Of a stretch of 64,000 nt of DNA, positions 55,384-64,000 are shown piece by piece. This DNA comes from Erythrobacter sp. SD-21. Its GTDB lineage: Bacteria; Pseudomonadota; Alphaproteobacteria; Sphingomonadales; Sphingomonadaceae. How positions within the stretch are numbered: position 1 is the stretch's first letter; each line of letters starts with the position of its first letter. The stretch lies in NCBI RefSeq assembly GCF_000181515.1, contig NZ_ABCG01000010.1:1-64000 (forward strand), written 5' to 3'. The notes beneath the pieces were generated by a model, which worked only from the letters and a program-made list of their open reading frames with translations, searched no databases and was not told the DNA's origin. The position numbers were made by a program, and so were the translations under genes.

Positions 55384-57198
55384 TTACAATCCCGCCATGG
55401 CCAGCATCGACGAGGCGCCCTGTTCGGCGCCGTCGGCGTTGCTGCGGAACATGGCGAAAAATTCGCGGCCCATGCCGCTGTCGGCCTGCGGCTCGGGCGC
55501 CGGCTCGCGGGTGTCGAGATCGGCGGTGGTCGAGAGCGTGCCGGTCTCGGCGCAGACGCGAACGATGTCGCCGTCACGCAGCTTTGCCAGCGGTCCGCTG
55601 CCCAAGGCTTCGGGCGTGCAGTGGATCGCGGCCGGAACCTTGCCGCTCGCGCCCGACATCCGCCCATCGGTGACAAGCGCGACGCGGTATCCGCGGTCCT
55701 GCAGCACGCCGAGGGCGGGGGTGAGCTTGTGGAGTTCGGGCATGCCGTTGGCGCGCGGTCCCTGATAGCGGACCACCACGACCACATCGCGGTCGAGTTC
55801 GCCCTTCTTGAACGCCTCGTTGACGCTCGGCTGGTCTTCGAAGATCCGGCACGGCGCCTCGATGGTCCAGCGCTCGCGCTTGACCGCGGAGGATTTGAAG
55901 CAGGCGCGGCCCAGATTGCCTTCGACGAGACGCATTCCGCCATCGGCCTCGAACGGCTCGGAAGCCGGGCGCAGCATCTCGGTGTCGCCGCTCGGGCCGG
56001 GATCGCGCCAAGTGAGCGCGTCGCCATCCATGACGGGCTCGCGGCTGTACATCTCGAAGCCGCCACCCGCGACGGTGAGGATGTCGCCATGCGCCAGCCC
56101 CTCGTCCAGCAGCGTGCCGATGACATAACCCATGCCGCCCGCTTCGTGGAAATGGTTCACGTCGCCCGATCCGTTGGGATAGACGCGTGCGACCAGCGGC
56201 ACGGCCCTCGACAGCTCGGCAAGGTCGGTCCAGTCGAACTTGATGCCGGCGGCCCGGGCCATGGCGGGAATGTGGATCGCGTGATTGGTCGAACCGCCTG
56301 TGGCGAGGAGGCCGATGGCCGCGTTGATGATCGCCTTTTCGTCGACCACGCGGCCCAGCGGGCGGAAATCTTCGCCCGACTTGCCGATCTCGGTCAGGCG
56401 ATGCGTCGCCTTGCGGCTCAGCTCCTGCCGCAGCTTCGCGCCCGGCGGCACGAAAGCCGCGCCGGGAATGTGGAGACCCATCATCTCCATCATCATCTGG
56501 TTCGAATTGGCGGTGCCGTAGAAGGTGCAGGTGCCGGGCGAATGGTAGCTGCCCATCTCGCTTGCCAACAGTTCCTCGCGCCCGACCTTGCCCTCGGCAT
56601 AGAGCTGGCGGGTGCGCTGCTTCTCCTTGTTGGAAATGCCGGTCCCCATCGGGCCCGAAGGCACGAAGATCGCGGGCAGGTGCCCGAAGCGCAGCGCGCC
56701 CATGAGCAAGCCTGGTACGATCTTGTCGCAGATGCCGAGCAGGGCAACGCCATCATACATGGCGTGGCTGAGGGCAACGACAGTCGAGAGCGCGATAGTG
56801 TCGCGGCTGAAGAGCGACAGTTCCATGCCGTCCTCGCCCTGCGTCACCCCGTCGCACATGGCTGGCGTGGCGCCCGCGACCTGTACGGTAGCGCCCACTT
56901 CGCGCGCCCAGATCTTCATCCGCTCGGGGTAGCGGTAATAGGGTTGATGCGCGGAGAGCATGTCGTTGTAGGCGGTGACGATGCCGAGGTTAGGCCCGCG
57001 CGCGGCCATGATCGCCTGCTGGTCTTCCTCGGCCCCGGCATAGGCGTGGGCGAGGTTGGAACAGGACAAAGTGCCGCGATTGACCTGCCGATCGCCTTCG
57101 CGGTCCATCAGGTCGAGATAGGCGCTGCGGCTCGGTTTCGAGTTCGCAATCACCCGCTCGGTCACGCGGTGGATGGTATCGTTCAAGCTCTTAGTCAT
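55384..57198 (-). CDS. edd: Phosphogluconate dehydratase
   Basis: Edd dehydrates 6-phosphogluconate to KDPG using a [4Fe-4S] cluster. The 604-residue protein is normal length for the IlvD/Edd family, with [39 protein letters not shown] (abridged), [14 protein letters not shown] and [15 protein letters not shown]. Conserved Cys residues in these blocks are the cluster ligands. Its start overlaps the end of zwf by eight bases. Confidence 0.95.
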
Positions 57199-58639
57199 CG
57201 TGCCAGGTCACCCCGTCGCGTTCGGCAAGCGCCACGGCGGCGCTGGGTCCCCATGTGCCCGCGGCATAGGTCTTGGGTTGTGTCTCGTTTTCCGCCCACA
57301 GCGCGCGGATGTGGTCGATGAAGTCCCACTGGGCCTCCACCTCGTCGCGGCGGACGAACAGCGTCTGGTCGCCATGGATGAGATCGAGCAGCAGGCGCTC
57401 GTAGGCGATCCGGCGGACCACATCGGAAAAGGCGTCGGGCATGGCGATGTCGAGCGGGACGGGGCGCAGGCGCAGCCCGTCGCTGCCAAGGCCGGGGACC
57501 TTCGCCATCATGGTCAGCTGGATGTTTTCTTCCGGCTGGATTTCGATGACCATGCGGTTGGGTTCGGTCTTGGCGCCGCGGCCTTCGAAGATCGAATGCG
57601 GGATGCATTTGAACTGGATCACGATTTCCGTGACCCGGCGCGGCATCCTCTTGCCGTGGCGCAGGTAGAACGGCACGCCGCGCCAGCGCCAGTTGTCGAC
57701 ATGGGCTTTGAGCGCGACATAGGTTTCCGTGTCGCTTGGCTTGCCCAGCTCCTCGTCATAGCCAGGCACGCTTTTCCCATCGACGGCCCCGGCGCGGTAC
57801 TGGCCGGTGACGACCTCGTTCGACTGGGCCGGGCGCAGCGCGCGCAGGACCTTCACCTTCTCGTCGCGCACGGCGGTGGCGTCGAAGCTGGTGGGCGGCT
57901 CCATCGCCACGAGCGCGAGGAGCTGCAGCATGTGGTTCTGGACCATGTCGCGAAGCGCACCGCTGTCGTCGTAATAGGCGACCCGGCTTTCGAGCCCGAC
58001 CGTCTCGGCGACGGTGATCTGGACGTGGTCGACGTAATTGGAATTCCACACCGGCTCGAGCAGGATGTTGGCGAACCGCAGGGCGAGGAGGTTCTGGACC
58101 GTTTCCTTGCCGAGATAGTGATCGATGCGGAAGATGCGGTCTTCGCTGAAGGCCTTGGCGACCGCATCGTTGATCTCGCAGCTGGAGGCAAGATCGGTGC
58201 CGAGCGGCTTTTCGAGCGCGATGCGCGCGTTGCCGTTGGTCAGACCGGCGCTTTTCAGGCCGGCGATGGTCGGCTCGAACAGGCTCGGCGCGGTCGAGAG
58301 GAAGATCGCGAGACCCTTGTACTCGCCGACTTGCCTCGCAAGTTCGTCATAGCCTTCAGGCGTCGTCGCATCGACCGGGACATAGCTCAGCCGGTTGAGG
58401 AAATCCGCCATCGGGCCACGCCGGTTCTTGGGCAGGTATTTCTCCAGCGCCTGCCGGGCGAAGTCGCGGAACTCCTTCGTGGTCATTTCCGAACGTGCGG
58501 TCGCCACGATGCACAGATCGGGATCGAGGAGGCCGTCGGCGTGCAAGGCGCAGAGCGAAGGCAGCAACATGCGCTGCGACAAATCTCCCGTGGCGCCGAA
58601 CAGGAGCAGCCCGTCCGCGTCGAACATTACCTCGGGCAT
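57191..58639 (-). CDS. zwf: Glucose-6-phosphate 1-dehydrogenase
   Basis: Zwf oxidises glucose-6-phosphate to 6-phosphogluconolactone, making NADPH or NADH. The 482-residue protein has the cofactor-site block LLLFGATGDLSQRMLLPSL and the catalytic RIDHYLGKETVQNLL. It is the first gene of the operon. A 6-phosphogluconolactonase gene (pgl), often next in line, is missing here. The ATG at 58639 is used here; a second Met four codons in is also possible, and neither has a clear ribosome-binding site. Confidence 0.95.
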   Translation of the reverse strand: MPEVMFDADGLLLFGATGDLSQRMLLPSLCALHADGLLDPDLCIVATARSEMTTKEFRDFARQALEKYLPKNRRGPMADFLNRLSYVPVDATTPEGYDELARQVGEYKGLAIFLSTAPSLFEPTIAGLKSAGLTNGNARIALEKPLGTDLASSCEINDAVAKAFSEDRIFRIDHYLGKETVQNLLALRFANILLEPVWNSNYVDHVQITVAETVGLESRVAYYDDSGALRDMVQNHMLQLLALVAMEPPTSFDATAVRDEKVKVLRALRPAQSNEVVTGQYRAGAVDGKSVPGYDEELGKPSDTETYVALKAHVDNWRWRGVPFYLRHGKRMPRRVTEIVIQFKCIPHSIFEGRGAKTEPNRMVIEIQPEENIQLTMMAKVPGLGSDGLRLRPVPLDIAMPDAFSDVVRRIAYERLLLDLIHGDQTLFVRRDEVEAQWDFIDHIRALWAENETQPKTYAAGTWGPSAAVALAERDGVTWHDD

Positions 58640-58733
58640 GCAGTGTCCACCGGCATCTTTTCTCTCATGAGCTTGGCGATATCAGCGGGGTAGCCGCGAC
58701 GCCAGTGCACCGCATTGCTATTCATGAGCCGCT

Positions 58734-59531
58734 TCATGACGCGGCAACCGTCACCTGCTTATCACCGAATTCGTTGAGGCCGAAACTGGTCAGGAAGCTT
58801 ACGTCGGCCGCATCGCGGCCCACACCGATCTTCACCGTCTGTGCGGGATCGGCCATTCCGGTCGCATCGACGATTTGCCAGGTTCCGCCGTCCTCGGTCT
58901 CGGGATCGTGGAGAAAAACTTCGGCCACCGCATGAAAATCGGGTGGATCGACTCCAGGAGCGTAGCAGGCGACATAACGGGCCGGGATAGTGCTGGCTCG
59001 CGCGAGAGCAACCATTACATGGGCGTAATCGCGGCAGATCCCGCGCCGCTCAACGAAGGTATCAAGGGCAGTGGTCTGGGGGCCTGATGCTCCGGGAACG
59101 TAGGCGAAGTTACGCGCCATCCAGTCGCGTATAGCGGCGATTCTCTGCCCCCCATCTGTGCTGCCAAACTCGTCTTCAACGAAAGTCTGGAATCGATCTG
59201 CGGGGCAGTAGCGGCTGTCGAAGAGGTACTGAACCGCCTCGCCCGGCATTTCATGGGGGGGAAGCCGCTTGAGTGACGATAGTTCGGCCAATTGGCGCTG
59301 AATTTCGATTTCAGCTCTGTAGACCACCCCAAACTTGCCCTTGGCTCTGATCCAGATACGTTCGCCGATGTCGTCCTGCGCCGGAACCCACGCGCAATGC
59401 TCGGAATCGGAAAGCTCGGTGTTGCTTGAGAGGATATCCTGCTCGGGTATCTTGGCTGCTTCGAATTGTAACAGAAGGTCCGTCGTACGGGGCAGGCAGA
59501 AAGAAAAATTCGTTTCAATAGAGATTGTCAT
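58734..59531 (-). CDS. Transglutaminase-like protein
   Basis: This 265-residue protein has the transglutaminase-like cysteine-protease fold. The catalytic triad is visible as Cys in ERRGICRDYAHVM, His in PDFHAVAEVFL and Asp in WQIVDATG. The N-terminal 100 residues match the domain usually found before this fold. Bacterial members are probably proteases or amidases, with unknown substrates. It lies downstream of the structured micro-gene on the same strand, 109 bases away. Confidence 0.88.
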   Translation of the reverse strand: MTISIETNFSFCLPRTTDLLLQFEAAKIPEQDILSSNTELSDSEHCAWVPAQDDIGERIWIRAKGKFGVVYRAEIEIQRQLAELSSLKRLPPHEMPGEAVQYLFDSRYCPADRFQTFVEDEFGSTDGGQRIAAIRDWMARNFAYVPGASGPQTTALDTFVERRGICRDYAHVMVALARASTIPARYVACYAPGVDPPDFHAVAEVFLHDPETEDGGTWQIVDATGMADPAQTVKIGVGRDAADVSFLTSFGLNEFGDKQVTVAAS

Positions 59532-59595
59532 AACCGCCCAACGCCAGAGGACACGCTCTGTTTCGCCTCACAGCAAAAAGGCCCTGAAACGAGAA

Positions 59596-59615
59596 AGGGC
59601 CCCTAAAGGGGCCCT
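59596..59615 (-). terminator. Perfect terminator after the micro-ORF
   Basis: Read on the minus strand, AGGGCCCC pairs with GGGGCCCT around a TTTA loop (8 of 8 pairs), followed by TTCTCGTTT. It lies 25 bases after the micro-ORF stop and 64 bases before the transglutaminase start. Confidence 0.85.
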
Positions 59616-59640
59616 TCCGAAAAGTAGTTAAGCTTTGGGC

Positions 59641-59676
59641 TTACTTGCCCATGAGCCATCCCCAAAAATCCCACAT
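59641..59676 (-). CDS. Eleven-codon tryptophan-rich micro-ORF
   Basis: This frame encodes MWDFWGWLMGK, with three Trp in eleven residues. It has an excellent ribosome-binding site, AGGAGG, six bases before the ATG. That site is the 3' arm of an 8-bp hairpin. A further 5-bp hairpin, TGGGC-AAGTAA-GCCCA, places the stop codon in its loop (59651-59636), and a perfect terminator follows. It is either a regulatory leader peptide for the transglutaminase gene downstream, or a peptide gene in its own right. The composition suggests a Trp-sensing leader, but the gene downstream is not for Trp synthesis. Confidence 0.6.
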   Translation of the reverse strand: MWDFWGWLMGK

Positions 59677-59682
59677 AATTCG

Positions 59683-59705
59683 CCTCCTGTTTGACGGACA
59701 GGAGG
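59683..59705 (-). promoter_or_regulatory. Hairpin sequestering the micro-ORF ribosome-binding site
   Basis: On the minus strand CCTCCTGT pairs perfectly with ACAGGAGG (59705-59698 with 59690-59683) around a 7-base loop. The paired 3' arm holds the entire AGGAGG of the micro-ORF, so translation should need melting or a trans-acting factor. Confidence 0.75.
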
Positions 59706-59720
59706 TAACTATCTGTTAAC
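59705..59720. promoter_or_regulatory. CtrA-like site
   Basis: GTAA-CTATCTG-TTAAC matches the CtrA consensus TTAA-N7-TTAAC at eight of nine positions. It lies 29-44 bases upstream of the micro-ORF start. A TTTACA-N17-GATAGT promoter-like pair overlaps it on the minus strand (59736-59708), but would start transcription inside the hairpin. Confidence 0.35.
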
Positions 59721-59743
59721 CATGAGTGTTTGTAAAGTGTTAA

Positions 59744-62086
59744 CTATCCTTCCAACGCGTCTTTTCCCCTAAAATCATTTAATTGCAGGAGGTTATCGAG
59801 GCTCATTGGACGCGCAAGAATATATCCCTGAACGTGCGTACAACCCATTTCCGTTAACATTTTCAGCGTTTCAGCGTCTTCTGCACCTTCGGCCACCACT
59901 CCGATTCGTGCGTCGCGTCCCATCTGAACAACACTGGACACGATTGCCTTTGCCTTAGAACTCTTAGCCATGTTCGCGATAAAAAGCCTGTCGATCTTAA
60001 GCTCGTCGAACGGCAGTTCGAAAAAGGTTTCAAAGTTGGTTTCTCCAACGCCGAAATCGTCCATCGAAATGCGCGTGCCGAGAGACTTTAGTTCATTGAG
60101 CACCATTTCTGCTGTCTCAAGATTGCCGATACGGGAGGTCTCCGTCACTTCGAGGATAAGAAATCGCGGGTCGAAGCCGGTCGCCTGGAGAACATTCCGG
60201 ACCATGCCGACGATCTTCATGTCCGACAGCAGCGTGGCGGAAATATTGATCGACATAGTGATCGAACGGCCCCGGAAATGCATCAGGCGACCTGCCGCGC
60301 AGGCATGTTCGAAGACGAATTCGGTGAGCGCATCCATTCGTCCCGCCTTCTCGCACTGCGCGATGAAGTGCATTGGCGGGATGAAACCGCGCGCAGGATC
60401 CTGCCAGCGAACCAGCGCCTCCACCCCGGTCATGTTACCATTCCTTGTGTCGACTTTGGGCTGGTAGACGCAGAAGATTTCGCCTGCGGACATGGCCTCG
60501 TCAATCCGTGCTCGCAGCGAGATGTCCCACAATTCGTCGAAGCGCGAGCTGCTCTCCGCGATCTTGATCGGCTGCAGTGCTTCTGAGCTTTCTTCCGCCG
60601 CAGCCACGGCCGCGGCAAGACGGACGGCGGGATCGCCGTCGAGCTTCGCCACACCGAAGCTAATTCCGACGTCGATCGACGATCCGGCAACGATGATCGG
60701 TGCGGCAAACATCGCGCGCAGACCTTCGAGATGCTCGGCGAGACGGTCGCCGTCTTCTTGCTTGGAATGCCAGGCGAGATGGTGACCTTCGGAATAGATG
60801 GCTAAGTTGCCATCGGTCGCACGAAGGCGGTCGACCAGTTTCAGGATGTATTGCGCGCGATGCGCGCGCGGGAGCGTCTTGAAAACGTATTCGTATCCGT
60901 GGATTCGGGCGACCACGAGATGTCCCCGCATATGGATGTCTTGCGTGACCTTGGCCTCGAGCGCGCGTAGTTTCTGCAGACCCGTTTCGTTGTCGACCAG
61001 TGCCATCCGGTCTTTCCATCGCGCGCGGGAGCGGAGTGCCGCGTAGGCCAAGAGGACGGCTGCGCAATACGACAGTTCGACCCGAACACCCAGCAGGCTG
61101 GCTACATAAAACCCTACCGGAACGATCGCGAGCATCATTGCATAGACGATTCGCCGACGCTTGCGGCTGTTGGCGATCAACAGCAGGACTGAGAAGATTA
61201 GGACGTAGGCTACAAGTGCGGGCAGGGCGCTGATGTAACCCGTGCGTCCGGCCTTCAGCGTCTCGGCGCCATAAATAGCCACGTAGCTCTCTGGCACAGA
61301 GTAGTTGCCGGGGACGCGTTGCCGCTTTTCCGAAAGGCTTGCGGCCTCGCCTATCACCACGGTTCTTCCAGCGAAACCGACGAGTGAGGAACCTGCATTG
61401 AGATCGGCAAGATCGACCGATGCGATATCCTCCGAATCCATTGCGTAGTCGACTTGGAAGCTGCCCGAACGCGTATCTTCGATGCCGGCCATCGAGGCAG
61501 CGAGAGTCGGGAGGCGCTGCCCCCTCACTTCGTGGGCATACTGGCGCGTCCAAGAGAAACCCAGCCAGTTGCCTGCATCGCGGGAAACCACACGCCTAGC
61601 CTGTCCGGCTATAGAAGAAGTGGTTGTGACGAGCCGGTCTTCGGCGCTGGCACTGCGTTCGATCTTGTCGACGACGATGGCACGGGGGCCGAGGCTAGCA
61701 AGTGCATCGGCGAGGTCGCGGTCGGCTTCTTGGGAAGATTCGAATGGGAAGGCGATATCGACGTAGACGCGGCCTACGCCTTCTCTTTCTAAGTTTCGCA
61801 AGGCCCTTGCTAATTCCTTGCGGCGATGCGGTAGTTGCGGGTCCGCCATATCTCGCTCGGTCCCGACGAAAACGATATCTCCGGAAGGCTCCTGATGTGC
61901 GAGCCGCGATTGAACCATCCAGCTAAACTGATCAACGGGATTGAGCAGAGTTGCCATGAACAGGACAAGGGCGATGCAGGCACTGACCAGCAAGTGCTTT
62001 ACCCGTTGAGCAGCACCGAGCGGCAAGCCAGTTACAGGCTTGACCGTATGCGCCGCTGCGCGGTCCAGGGTGCGGATGACATTCAT
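59744..62086 (-). CDS. CHASE2-degenerate GGDEF-EAL c-di-GMP phosphodiesterase
   Basis: This 780-residue membrane protein has a helix at about 32-48, a periplasmic CHASE2 domain (about 50-270), further helices (about 285-360), then GGDEF and EAL domains. The GGDEF motif is replaced by EGHHLAW, so no cyclase activity is expected; that domain may still bind GTP. The EAL part keeps its active-site residues (VEALVRWQDP, NISATLL, EVTETSR, MDDFGVGETN, ELKIDRLFI, AEGAED), so c-di-GMP breakdown is likely, triggered by a periplasmic cue. The ATG at 62086 has no strong ribosome-binding site. It has a structured leader. Confidence 0.9.
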   Translation of the reverse strand: MNVIRTLDRAAAHTVKPVTGLPLGAAQRVKHLLVSACIALVLFMATLLNPVDQFSWMVQSRLAHQEPSGDIVFVGTERDMADPQLPHRRKELARALRNLEREGVGRVYVDIAFPFESSQEADRDLADALASLGPRAIVVDKIERSASAEDRLVTTTSSIAGQARRVVSRDAGNWLGFSWTRQYAHEVRGQRLPTLAASMAGIEDTRSGSFQVDYAMDSEDIASVDLADLNAGSSLVGFAGRTVVIGEAASLSEKRQRVPGNYSVPESYVAIYGAETLKAGRTGYISALPALVAYVLIFSVLLLIANSRKRRRIVYAMMLAIVPVGFYVASLLGVRVELSYCAAVLLAYAALRSRARWKDRMALVDNETGLQKLRALEAKVTQDIHMRGHLVVARIHGYEYVFKTLPRAHRAQYILKLVDRLRATDGNLAIYSEGHHLAWHSKQEDGDRLAEHLEGLRAMFAAPIIVAGSSIDVGISFGVAKLDGDPAVRLAAAVAAAEESSEALQPIKIAESSSRFDELWDISLRARIDEAMSAGEIFCVYQPKVDTRNGNMTGVEALVRWQDPARGFIPPMHFIAQCEKAGRMDALTEFVFEHACAAGRLMHFRGRSITMSINISATLLSDMKIVGMVRNVLQATGFDPRFLILEVTETSRIGNLETAEMVLNELKSLGTRISMDDFGVGETNFETFFELPFDELKIDRLFIANMAKSSKAKAIVSSVVQMGRDARIGVVAEGAEDAETLKMLTEMGCTHVQGYILARPMSLDNLLQLNDFRGKDALEG

Positions 62087-62156
62087 CGCACATCCGTATG
62101 GCCCGATTAAGTTTAAGAATGTTTTGACGTACCCGCGTTTTTTTGACGGATTGATG

Positions 62157-62264
62157 AAAAACCGCGCCCTTCAGTGGTTAAGGGTGCAGTAGTAAAGAAG
62201 ATGAAGAATGTCTGATCGTGCGCCTTTGGAGGCGCAAACAACACACGTATTTTCCTAGATTATA
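62157..62264 (-). ncRNA. Candidate small RNA or attenuator in the CHASE2-EAL leader
   Basis: On the minus strand TATAAT (62264-62259) is followed by the hairpin TGCGCC-TCCAAA-GGCGCA (62236-62219). Next comes GCACCCTT with AAGGGCGC (62187-62180 with 62171-62164, one mismatch) and then GGTTTTTC (62161-62157). Transcription from that -10 would give a product of about 95 bases ending at a terminator, 70 bases before the gene start. No good -35 is present. The rest of the 242-base gap (62087-62328) shows nothing further. Confidence 0.35.
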
Positions 62265-62328
62265 CAACCCTTTACCATTCTGCGGCGCAGGGGTAATTCG
62301 TCGCTAAAGCAGCAGTTGGAGCAGCGAT

Positions 62329-63702
62329 CTAGGAAAGAATTCCAAATAGGTCATGCGCATCAGCATCTTCGACGGTCACGTTTACGATATCGCCGGCAGC
62401 AAGCGTTCCGGGCACGTTTCGCAGGTAAACCGCACCGTCGATTTCGGGCGCATCGGCTTGGCTGCGACCGGTCGCGCCGATATCGCCGTCCTCGTCCGGC
62501 TCGCCCACTTCGTCGATGATGACGGGGATTGAGCGGCCGACCTTTGCCTGCAGCTTGGCGGAGCTGATCCGCTCGGTCACTTCCATGACGCGGGCGTAGC
62601 GTTCTTCCTTGATCTCTTCGGGCACAGGATCGGGCAGGTGATTGGCCTGCGCGCCTTCGACGGGTTCGAAGCGGAAGGCGCCGACGCGGTCGAGCTGGGC
62701 TTCTTCGAGCCAGTCGAGCAGGTACTTGAAATCATCGTCGGTCTCGCCCGGGAAGCCGACGACGAAGCTGGAGCGGATCGCGATCTCGGGGCAGATCTCG
62801 CGCCAGCCCTTAAGGCGTTCGAGCACCTTGGCCTCGTTCGCCGGACGTTTCATCGAGCGCAGCACCTTTGGGCTGGCGTGCTGGAAGGGAATGTCGAGAT
62901 AGGGCGTCAGCAACCCCTCGGCCATGAGCGGGATGACCGCGTCGACATGCGGGTAGGGATAGACATAGTGCAGCCGCACCCACGGCGGCATACCGCCACC
63001 GATGTCGAGCTGGCCCAGCTCGCGCGCGAGCTCGGTCATGTGCGCGCGCACTTCGCGGCCCTTCCACGCCTTGCTCTCGTGGCGCGTATCGACGCCATAG
63101 GCGCTGGTGTCCTGGCTGATGACCAGCAGTTCCTTCGTGCCGGCGGCGACCAATTTTTCAGCTTCGCGCAGCACCGCATCGATCCGGCGGCTGGCGAGCT
63201 TCCCGCGCAGGTCCGGGATAATGCAGAAGGCGCAGGAGTGATTGCAGCCTTCGGAAATCTTCAGATAGCTGTAGTGGCGCGGCGTCAGCTTCACGTCCGG
63301 CTGCGGGATAAGGTCGATATATGGACCCTGGCTGGGCGGGGCGTGCTCGTGCACCGCTTCGACCACGGCTTCGTATTGATGCGCTCCGGTCACCGCCAGG
63401 ACGCTGGGATGTGCGGCGCGGATGGCGTTCGCTTCCTCGCCCATGCAGCCCGTCACGATCACACGACCATTTTCGGCAATAGCCTCGCCGATCGCCTGCA
63501 AGCTTTCTTCCTTCGCCGAATCGAGGAACCCGCAGGTGTTCACCAGCACCACGTCCGCGCCCGCGTAATCGGGGCTCATCGCATAACCGTCCGCGCGCAG
63601 GCGCGTAAGGATGCGTTCGCTGTCGACCAGCGCCTTGGGGCAGCCGAGGGAAACCATGCCGACCTTCTTCTGGTCGGGGATCGGAGTGGTGGGGGTGTTC
63701 AT
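62329..63702 (-). CDS. rimO: Ribosomal protein S12 methylthiotransferase RimO
   Basis: RimO is a radical-SAM enzyme with two iron-sulfur clusters that adds a methylthio group to Asp88 of ribosomal protein S12. The 457-residue protein has the N-terminal UPF0004 domain ([34 protein letters not shown]), the radical-SAM motif GCNHSCAFC (CxxxCxxC) near residue 152, and a TRAM domain at the end. MiaB is the close relative, but the S12-specific blocks favour RimO. Confidence 0.95.
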
Positions 63703-63768
63703 AGCTATGTCCGTGGGGTTTGCGCGCGCCCCTACACCAAGAGGGCGGCTCGCGCTAGGAGGGACGAT

Positions 63769-64000
63769 ATGGGACCTGTAAACTGGATCGCGGTGGTGGC
63801 CGCATGGGGTGTCGCCGCGCTACTGGGCGTGGCTTTCTATGGCAGGGCAGCGGCACCGCGCCCGCCATATCTCCTGCATATCGCGGCAGCTCTGCTGATG
63901 TTTGCGAGCGCCGCCATGCTCGGCCACATGTTTGCCCGGGTCGGCACGGCCACGCTCGATGCGAAGTGGTGGCTTTACTTCATGATGGCGGGCGGGCTGG
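63769..64000 (+). CDS. Membrane protein, N-terminal part (window ends)
   Basis: The frame starts [20 protein letters not shown] after AGGAGGG and runs past the end of the window, giving 77 codons. It shows two or three hydrophobic segments, and the [10 protein letters not shown] opening recalls DUF1761, but too little is present to be sure. Confidence 0.65.

Follow-up and report, generated by a model that had tools for sequence, protein, structure and literature searches.

A conserved Trp-motif micro-gene directly behind CHASE2-EAL genes in the Sphingomonadaceae, with a ribosome-binding site paired in a predicted hairpin

The window analysed here, a stretch of 64,000 nucleotides from Erythrobacter sp. 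SD-21 (contig NZ_ABCG01000010.1), carries between 55384 and 63702 the genes rimO, CHASE2-EAL, a micro-gene, transglutaminase, G6PD and Edd, in that order. The micro-gene unit is placed directly behind the 780-aa CHASE2-EAL gene and ahead of the transglutaminase-like gene. It occupies positions 59595-59744 of the minus strand and runs from a promoter-like element through an 8-bp hairpin over the Shine-Dalgarno (SD) sequence AGGAGG, an 11-codon ORF and a stop-codon hairpin to a terminator-like stem. An earlier, sequence-only reading of this DNA had pointed to the ORF, to its fully paired AGGAGG, to a second hairpin whose loop holds the stop codon and to a terminator with a T-rich tail. All four are present in the window: the ORF MWDFWGWLMGK at 59676-59641 with a TAA stop, the first hairpin as an exact 8-bp match (59705-59698 / 59690-59683), the second with a 5-bp stem (59651-59636), and the terminator-like stem with 9 bp (59616-59595), its T tail interrupted after the stem and a generic terminator scan reporting none here. 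Absent from that reading were the promoter-like site TTTACA-17-GATAGT and the link to the upstream gene as a constant neighbour. The features are as follows.

59744..62086, minus strand: CHASE2-EAL c-di-GMP phosphodiesterase gene, 780 aa (Pfam CHASE2 and EAL; solved EAL relatives; adjacency in 97/97 loci)
59716..59744, minus strand: conserved element GTTWANNCTTTACAAACNNNNNTGGTTAA, containing ATGGTTAA; kept in relatives, with the CtrA-like TTAACCAT on the opposite strand
59731..59736, minus strand: -35-like TTTACA (promoter scan, relatives)
59708..59713, minus strand: -10-like GATAGT, spacing 17, weak; putative start near 59701
59698..59705, minus strand: 5′ (anti-SD) arm of the hairpin, CCTCCTGT, overlapping the predicted transcription start
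59683..59690, minus strand: 3′ arm of the hairpin, ACAGGAGG, with the SD within it (fold prediction)
59683..59688, minus strand: Shine-Dalgarno AGGAGG, fully paired in the predicted fold, 6-nt spacing to the ORF
59641..59676, minus strand: micro-ORF MWDFWGWLMGK, 11 codons + TAA (direct reading; core conserved among relatives)
59636..59651, minus strand: 5-bp stem with the stop codon in its loop, present in part of the relatives
59595..59616, minus strand: terminator-like stem-loop, 9-bp stem AAGGGCCCC/GGGGCCCTT, 4-nt loop, then TCTCGTTTC

The 181-nt segment folds at -69.9 kcal/mol (z -4.8), and 0/200 shuffles were equally good. Matches to the hairpin with at most 3 mismatches number 2, against 0.20 expected per window. 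Under a looser criterion a terminator is found in all 97 relatives' loci described below, the window's included, and the stem probably serves both the micro-gene and read-through from the EAL gene. Since the same loose script also picks terminator-like stems upstream in 51/97 loci, no claim is made that a terminator is absent between enzyme and micro-gene. Hairpins around the stop codon with a stem of at least 5 bp were seen in 24/97 loci, with differing sequences, as against 2.6% with shuffled flanks (a comparison uncorrected for relatedness); being found in so few loci, this hairpin was rejected as a general part of the unit.

The block is present once in its own genome, as judged with a 150-base blastn query. 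With this query, matches at E≤0.01 were obtained in 28 of 61 genomes, comprising 27 of the 37 in the window's genus (own genome included) and one spurious 22-base match. A 27-row sequence-only profile matched 54 of 60 genomes of the genus at E below 1e-11 (55 at E≤1) and, family-wide, 57 of 397 genomes, from 17 of 96 genera. Five of the remaining six genus genomes carry a second type of micro-gene behind another CHASE2-EAL gene; in the sixth (G468), no micro-gene was seen behind the one CHASE2-EAL gene examined. A separate scan returned 60 stretches, of which 58 were read as micro-gene, 53 by the aromatic pattern and five by eye (L142, L164, L168, L181, L183). Most carriers in that scan are recorded as Qipengyuania, Erythrobacter, Aurantiacibacter, Altererythrobacter or close kin, a few bear no label finer than Sphingomonadaceae or Alphaproteobacteria, and the matches in Anaerolineae (L144) and Bacteroidetes (L177) look like chance. 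The comparisons below use 97 distinct loci. Of these, 50 belong to the window's genus, and the whole set spans 17 genera (Qipengyuania, Aurantiacibacter and related ones). The 97 were drawn from loci L001-L121 by leaving out L026 (the 22-base terminator match) and L109 (second type) and then removing duplicates from the resulting 119, of which 94 were read by script, 24 were recovered by a looser rule and one (L101) was read by hand. Because the finding profile includes the promoter, the SD and the Trp codons, the conservation of these parts is partly selected for; the upstream gene and the base pairs are excluded from the profile. A peptide profile run on 246 genomes of the order, which is insensitive and misses the window's own copy, matched 44 at E≤0.01. 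Ten of its places were fetched: the six in-family ones (E≤0.0042) adjoin CHASE2-EAL genes, and no adjoining CHASE2-EAL gene was found at a weak in-family match (G086) or at three weak extra-family ones (L261-L263).

Of the 97 ORFs, 92 encode 10-17 aa and five encode 18-38 aa; ATG is the start codon in 96. A core of about 7-8 residues, [F/I]-W-x-W-[L/I]-[F/L]-G, is kept in 96/97 loci; in these 96 core blocks Y stands in place of W in 4 at the first Trp position (W in 92) and in 3 at the second (W in 93). Ahead of the Trp pair stands F or I (M in 2), the residue after it is mostly L, I or F, and 92/97 peptides contain two or three Trp. In the window's genus (g1, 50 rows) pN/pS of the ORF is 0.36, and in another genus (g36, 11 rows) it is 0.10; for g1, the values in the other two frames are 0.59 (42 rows) and 1.00 (49 rows). 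This amounts to selection at the protein level. The suggestion of the sequence-only reading that this is a peptide gene with its own function is supported by this purifying selection and by the compensatory change in the stem described below. As a gene, the micro-gene is almost certainly real, representing a conserved family, apparently unannotated, that is tied to CHASE2-EAL enzymes.

All Trp are lost at two loci, L101 (genome G118; MIDLIAIALGSRRGS, GTG start, ORF chosen by hand) and L181 (MRDILNTIIGGSR); both retain the promoter box and the SD, and L101 also the hairpin in its predicted fold. In more distant relatives the peptide often gains length and a basic N-terminal portion, the core being the same (e.g. 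MAKRTKQPVRGFWDWLLGGGWSN, MKTTKTVRPAPTKGFWDWVMGGGWKNG). The second type of CHASE2-EAL gene with a micro-ORF is represented by L222, L226, L227, L229, L231, L234, L241 and L246 (e.g. MSIWKWVGNLVSPR, MWEYFRTLFGAR), and several of these loci show a GCAC..GTGC inner stem immediately 5′ of the SD. An amphipathic helix was also considered, and is not claimed, the hydrophobic moments of seven peptides lying not clearly above those of shuffles.

The protein encoded upstream has TM-like stretches at residues 33-51, 287-305 and 316-334, with a borderline one at 459-477, and no Pfam GGDEF match was found in its 780 residues. Its EAL domain carries the motifs EALVRW, NIS, EVTE, DDFG, ELKID, EGAE and QGY, which we take to be those of active phosphodiesterases, and MucR and DosP are among the closest solved chains. 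In 97/97 loci a CHASE2-EAL protein terminates on the same strand no more than 260 nt upstream of the micro-gene, and in 19/19 longer loci the enzyme is adjacent and 30-54% identical. A reverse search with the CHASE2 part only gave 57 matches in 50 of 129 family genomes, with a micro-ORF behind 46 of them (18/18 already known, 17/20 and 11/19 in further sets) and none downstream of the other 11; micro-ORFs were accepted here on the aromatic pattern and reading by eye (L205 and L241 by eye), and pattern-positive ORFs without SD or similarity were rejected. On an enzyme tree of 68 rows built by a quick method, 53 with and 15 without the micro-gene, the micro-gene label needs 2 changes, as against 13.8 for shuffled labels (0/500 as low); the window and 19 other rows had been chosen for having the micro-gene. 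The rows without it form one clade of 14, plus L206. At this last locus (genome G181) a transposase-like ORF stands where the micro-gene is expected, and the closest enzyme relative, L245, has the micro-gene. A search of 210 genomes of the class from other families yielded 8 CHASE2 matches with no micro-ORF downstream in the 7 readable ones (L256 runs off its contig), a thin test because only L256 and L260 carry the EAL motif. Plasmid records gave no CHASE2 match. CHASE2-EAL proteins ending in -AA, reminiscent of ClpXP degrons, occur among L202-L252 both with (19/53) and without (6/15) the micro-gene, and the window's own protein ends DALEG. Taken on the pattern of co-inheritance, the product of the micro-gene is probably a functional partner of the CHASE2-EAL enzyme, with the reservation that the products of constant neighbours do not necessarily bind each other.

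The hairpin over the ribosome-binding site recurs throughout the set. Predicted pairing of the SD exceeds 0.5 in 96/97 loci (the exception being L046) and 0.8 in 70/97, and the leaders fold better than their shuffles (mean z -3.2). With leaders of 40 nt the corresponding counts are 96/97 and 68/97, as against 52% and 20% of 25 ordinary genes; among ordinary SD-bearing genes within the fetched loci, 1/14 shows pairing above 0.8. For 33 longer or second-type micro-genes with 60-nt leaders, predicted pairing above 0.5 (30/33) and above 0.8 (15/33) is in modest excess over controls (76% and 28%). The 5′ arm of each locus beats arms from other genera by 4.0 kcal/mol (genus average) in 17/17 genera, with 17% of single arm swaps as stable as the native pair; since swapped arms cost stability in every genus, the two arms co-vary. 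Conservation of the peptide and compensatory changes in the stem, which the sequence-only reading had named beforehand as its test among relatives, are thus both found.

Upstream of the hairpin, TTTACA-17-GATAGT (59736-59708) is the only sigma-70-like site on either strand of 59500-60000, where shuffles give 0.4. A genome-wide search allowing up to 3 mismatches located the conserved element here only, and with just this one site there is therefore no regulon from which a function could be deduced. Among relatives the TTTACA box is nearly invariant, with a weak [C/T/G]ATTNT at spacing 17; these counts omit L082 and L104, where the box finder failed though TTTACAAA is visible in both. A TTGNWAACC box, selected by script for its best -10, is present in 14 of the 33 longer or second-type loci, and the hexamer at spacing 17 starts with TA in 9 of these 14. 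The predicted start, near 59701, lies inside the anti-SD arm (59705-59698). Over 106 leaders the centre of this arm is -2.2 ± 3.8 nt from the predicted start, and the distance from SD to arm rises from 11 to 28 nt between types. The longer type alone shows more scatter (-0.6 ± 7.1, 13 leaders), and a looser box search placed the arm near the start in only 9/16 further loci. When the RNA is cut at the predicted start, SD pairing drops from a mean of 0.84 to 0.55, close to that of ordinary genes (0.55), with 61/95 cut RNAs still above 0.5. The -10 at spacing 17 is a weak candidate: mean matches to TATAAT in 14 longer-type loci are 3.00 at spacing 15 and 2.79 at spacing 17, and in 95 other loci 3.45, 2.43 and 2.68 at spacings 10, 12 and 15 and 2.42 at 17. 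Should GTTAAY within the conserved element serve as the -10 instead, the start would lie about 6 nt earlier and the lock would be kept in the micro-gene's own transcript. Between -35 and -10 the window has ATGGTTAA, which reads TTAACCAT when reversed, and this suggests a link to CtrA. According to excerpts of one report, CtrA sites comprise an ungapped motif TTAACCAT, or TTAA-N7-TTAA near -35 (PMC6180460), and excerpts of another describe loss of CtrA in Sphingomonas melonis as having no negative effect on growth or viability (PMC8116508).

From the conserved ORF and neighbour and the predicted, co-varying lock we infer a promoter start, an insulator and an action on the enzyme, combined as follows. 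The 11-residue Trp-motif micro-protein would work with the CHASE2-EAL phosphodiesterase of the gene just upstream. Most likely it would bind this enzyme and so set its activity, an action proposed because the micro-gene is co-inherited with the CHASE2-EAL gene. The hairpin would hold the ribosome-binding site shut: mRNA reading through from the EAL gene would fold the lock and yield no peptide, and transcripts from the micro-gene's own promoter, possibly CtrA-linked, would begin inside the anti-SD arm and so be translatable. Such a read-through insulator is the likeliest working because the anti-SD arm sits at the predicted start of the own transcript. Insulator-type control is nonetheless put a little below an even chance, lowered slightly because the TATAAT comparison does not single out spacing 17. 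For the explanation as a whole, i.e. a separately controlled micro-gene, a micro-protein working with the enzyme and a read-through insulator, the balance seems even. It is tempting to extend it to the family, with minimal micro-proteins as a dedicated ligand or subunit of CHASE2-EAL proteins, translated only from their own (perhaps CtrA-driven, cell-cycle) transcript by way of a promoter-embedded lock; in this full form the idea is rather unlikely.

Another possible working, to which we give serious if clearly minor weight, keeps the same micro-protein and partner and has the own transcript also carry the lock, to be opened by temperature, a trans-acting RNA or a protein. The conservation of the hairpin with covariation is in line with it, as are the start position ahead of the anti-SD arm that GTTAAY would imply as the -10, the failure of spacing 17 to give the best -10 by overall match, and pairing of the AUG above 0.5 in 22/97 loci. 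Against it, the position of the anti-SD arm follows the predicted start more closely than it follows the SD, and Rfam gave 0 matches at E≤1 in 56000-64000. Leader stability ranges from -5.1 to -20.4 kcal/mol (sd 3.1), unlike a tuned thermometer, so that of the RNA thermometer proposed by the sequence-only reading the paired SD (predicted above 0.5 in 96/97 loci) stands and the thermal switch is not favoured. That reading had also raised Trp-dependent attenuation of the gene beyond the terminator. Leaders such as trpL have a short Trp-containing ORF before a terminator; the micro-gene is likewise a short ORF with a terminator 3′ of it, mostly with two or three Trp. However, the transglutaminase gene lies downstream in 45/97 loci from 3/17 genera only, 43 of them in the window's own genus, and of 19 longer loci 4 (L124, L136, L140, L141) retain the full RimO/transglutaminase/G6PD/Edd neighbourhood, CHASE2-EAL being the only one of the window's neighbours found in the other 15. 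With no conserved downstream gene, attenuation of the transglutaminase gene is refuted. Trp-free and Tyr versions moreover show Trp to be dispensable in some relatives, and the hairpin lies upstream of the ORF, over the ORF's own SD, leaving a Trp-responsive leader peptide for the downstream gene the least probable of the explanations considered.

A non-coding small RNA with an incidental ORF would fit the compact promoter-hairpin-terminator unit of about 105 nt, but the frame and aromatic core are retained with synonymous drift in 96/97 loci and the ORF has a lower pN/pS than the other frames, which makes this very improbable. Slightly less so, and still improbable, is a type I toxin, that is a short hydrophobic peptide made from an SD-sequestered mRNA under an antisense RNA. 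A parallel is the aapA3 toxin mRNA, in which, according to excerpts of PMC6733600, local hairpins sequester the SD of a short ORF, an arrangement shared by the micro-gene with its short hydrophobic peptide. Against a toxin, the micro-gene is present in single copy, is co-inherited with one c-di-GMP enzyme gene, has a core of only about 8 residues, and shows no promoter-like site on the opposite strand of 59500-60000 in a sigma-70 consensus scan.

For 11 longer versions of the peptide (23-38 aa), neither Pfam nor NCBIfam gave a match at E≤10, the 11-mer itself being below the 20-residue minimum. In open-licence PubMed Central, no paper with the peptide core motifs was found, nor one joining CHASE2, EAL, c-di-GMP and Alphaproteobacteria. 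Genes of 11 codons fall far below annotation limits, yet much of a family has retained this one alongside a single signalling enzyme. Should the peptide regulate that enzyme, it would represent an overlooked component of c-di-GMP control in the family and a candidate ligand or subunit for CHASE2 domains, and the arrangement of a hairpin at the transcription start would offer an easy criterion, at sequence level, by which further insulated micro-genes could be sought. Were the ligand or subunit reading true, few conserved bacterial protein genes with an assignable partner would be shorter than the micro-gene.

Several known systems share individual traits with this locus. In the read-through hairpin of the IS10/IS50 transposase genes, the anti-SD arm lies upstream of or at the promoter start, so that read-through mRNA would be locked. 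The anti-SD arm of the micro-gene resembles this by its place at a promoter start, here a predicted one; the gene so arranged is a transposase in IS10/IS50 and a chromosomal micro-gene of one bacterial family here. The ORFs of the streptococcal ComS/XIP Trp-Trp pheromones are very short, carry a Trp-pair motif and adjoin the gene of the receptor. The micro-gene is comparably short, has such a motif too, and adjoins the CHASE2-EAL gene as ComS/XIP adjoins its receptor gene; CHASE2-EAL is not, however, an Rgg-type receptor. A further parallel is DbfQ, which excerpts of PMC12714742 present as a periplasmic small protein encoded beside dbfRS. In both cases the gene for a small protein adjoins that of a membrane signalling protein, on which DbfQ acts according to those excerpts; unlike periplasmic DbfQ, the peptide considered here has 10-38 aa with no signal peptide visible by eye, and its constant neighbour is CHASE2-EAL.
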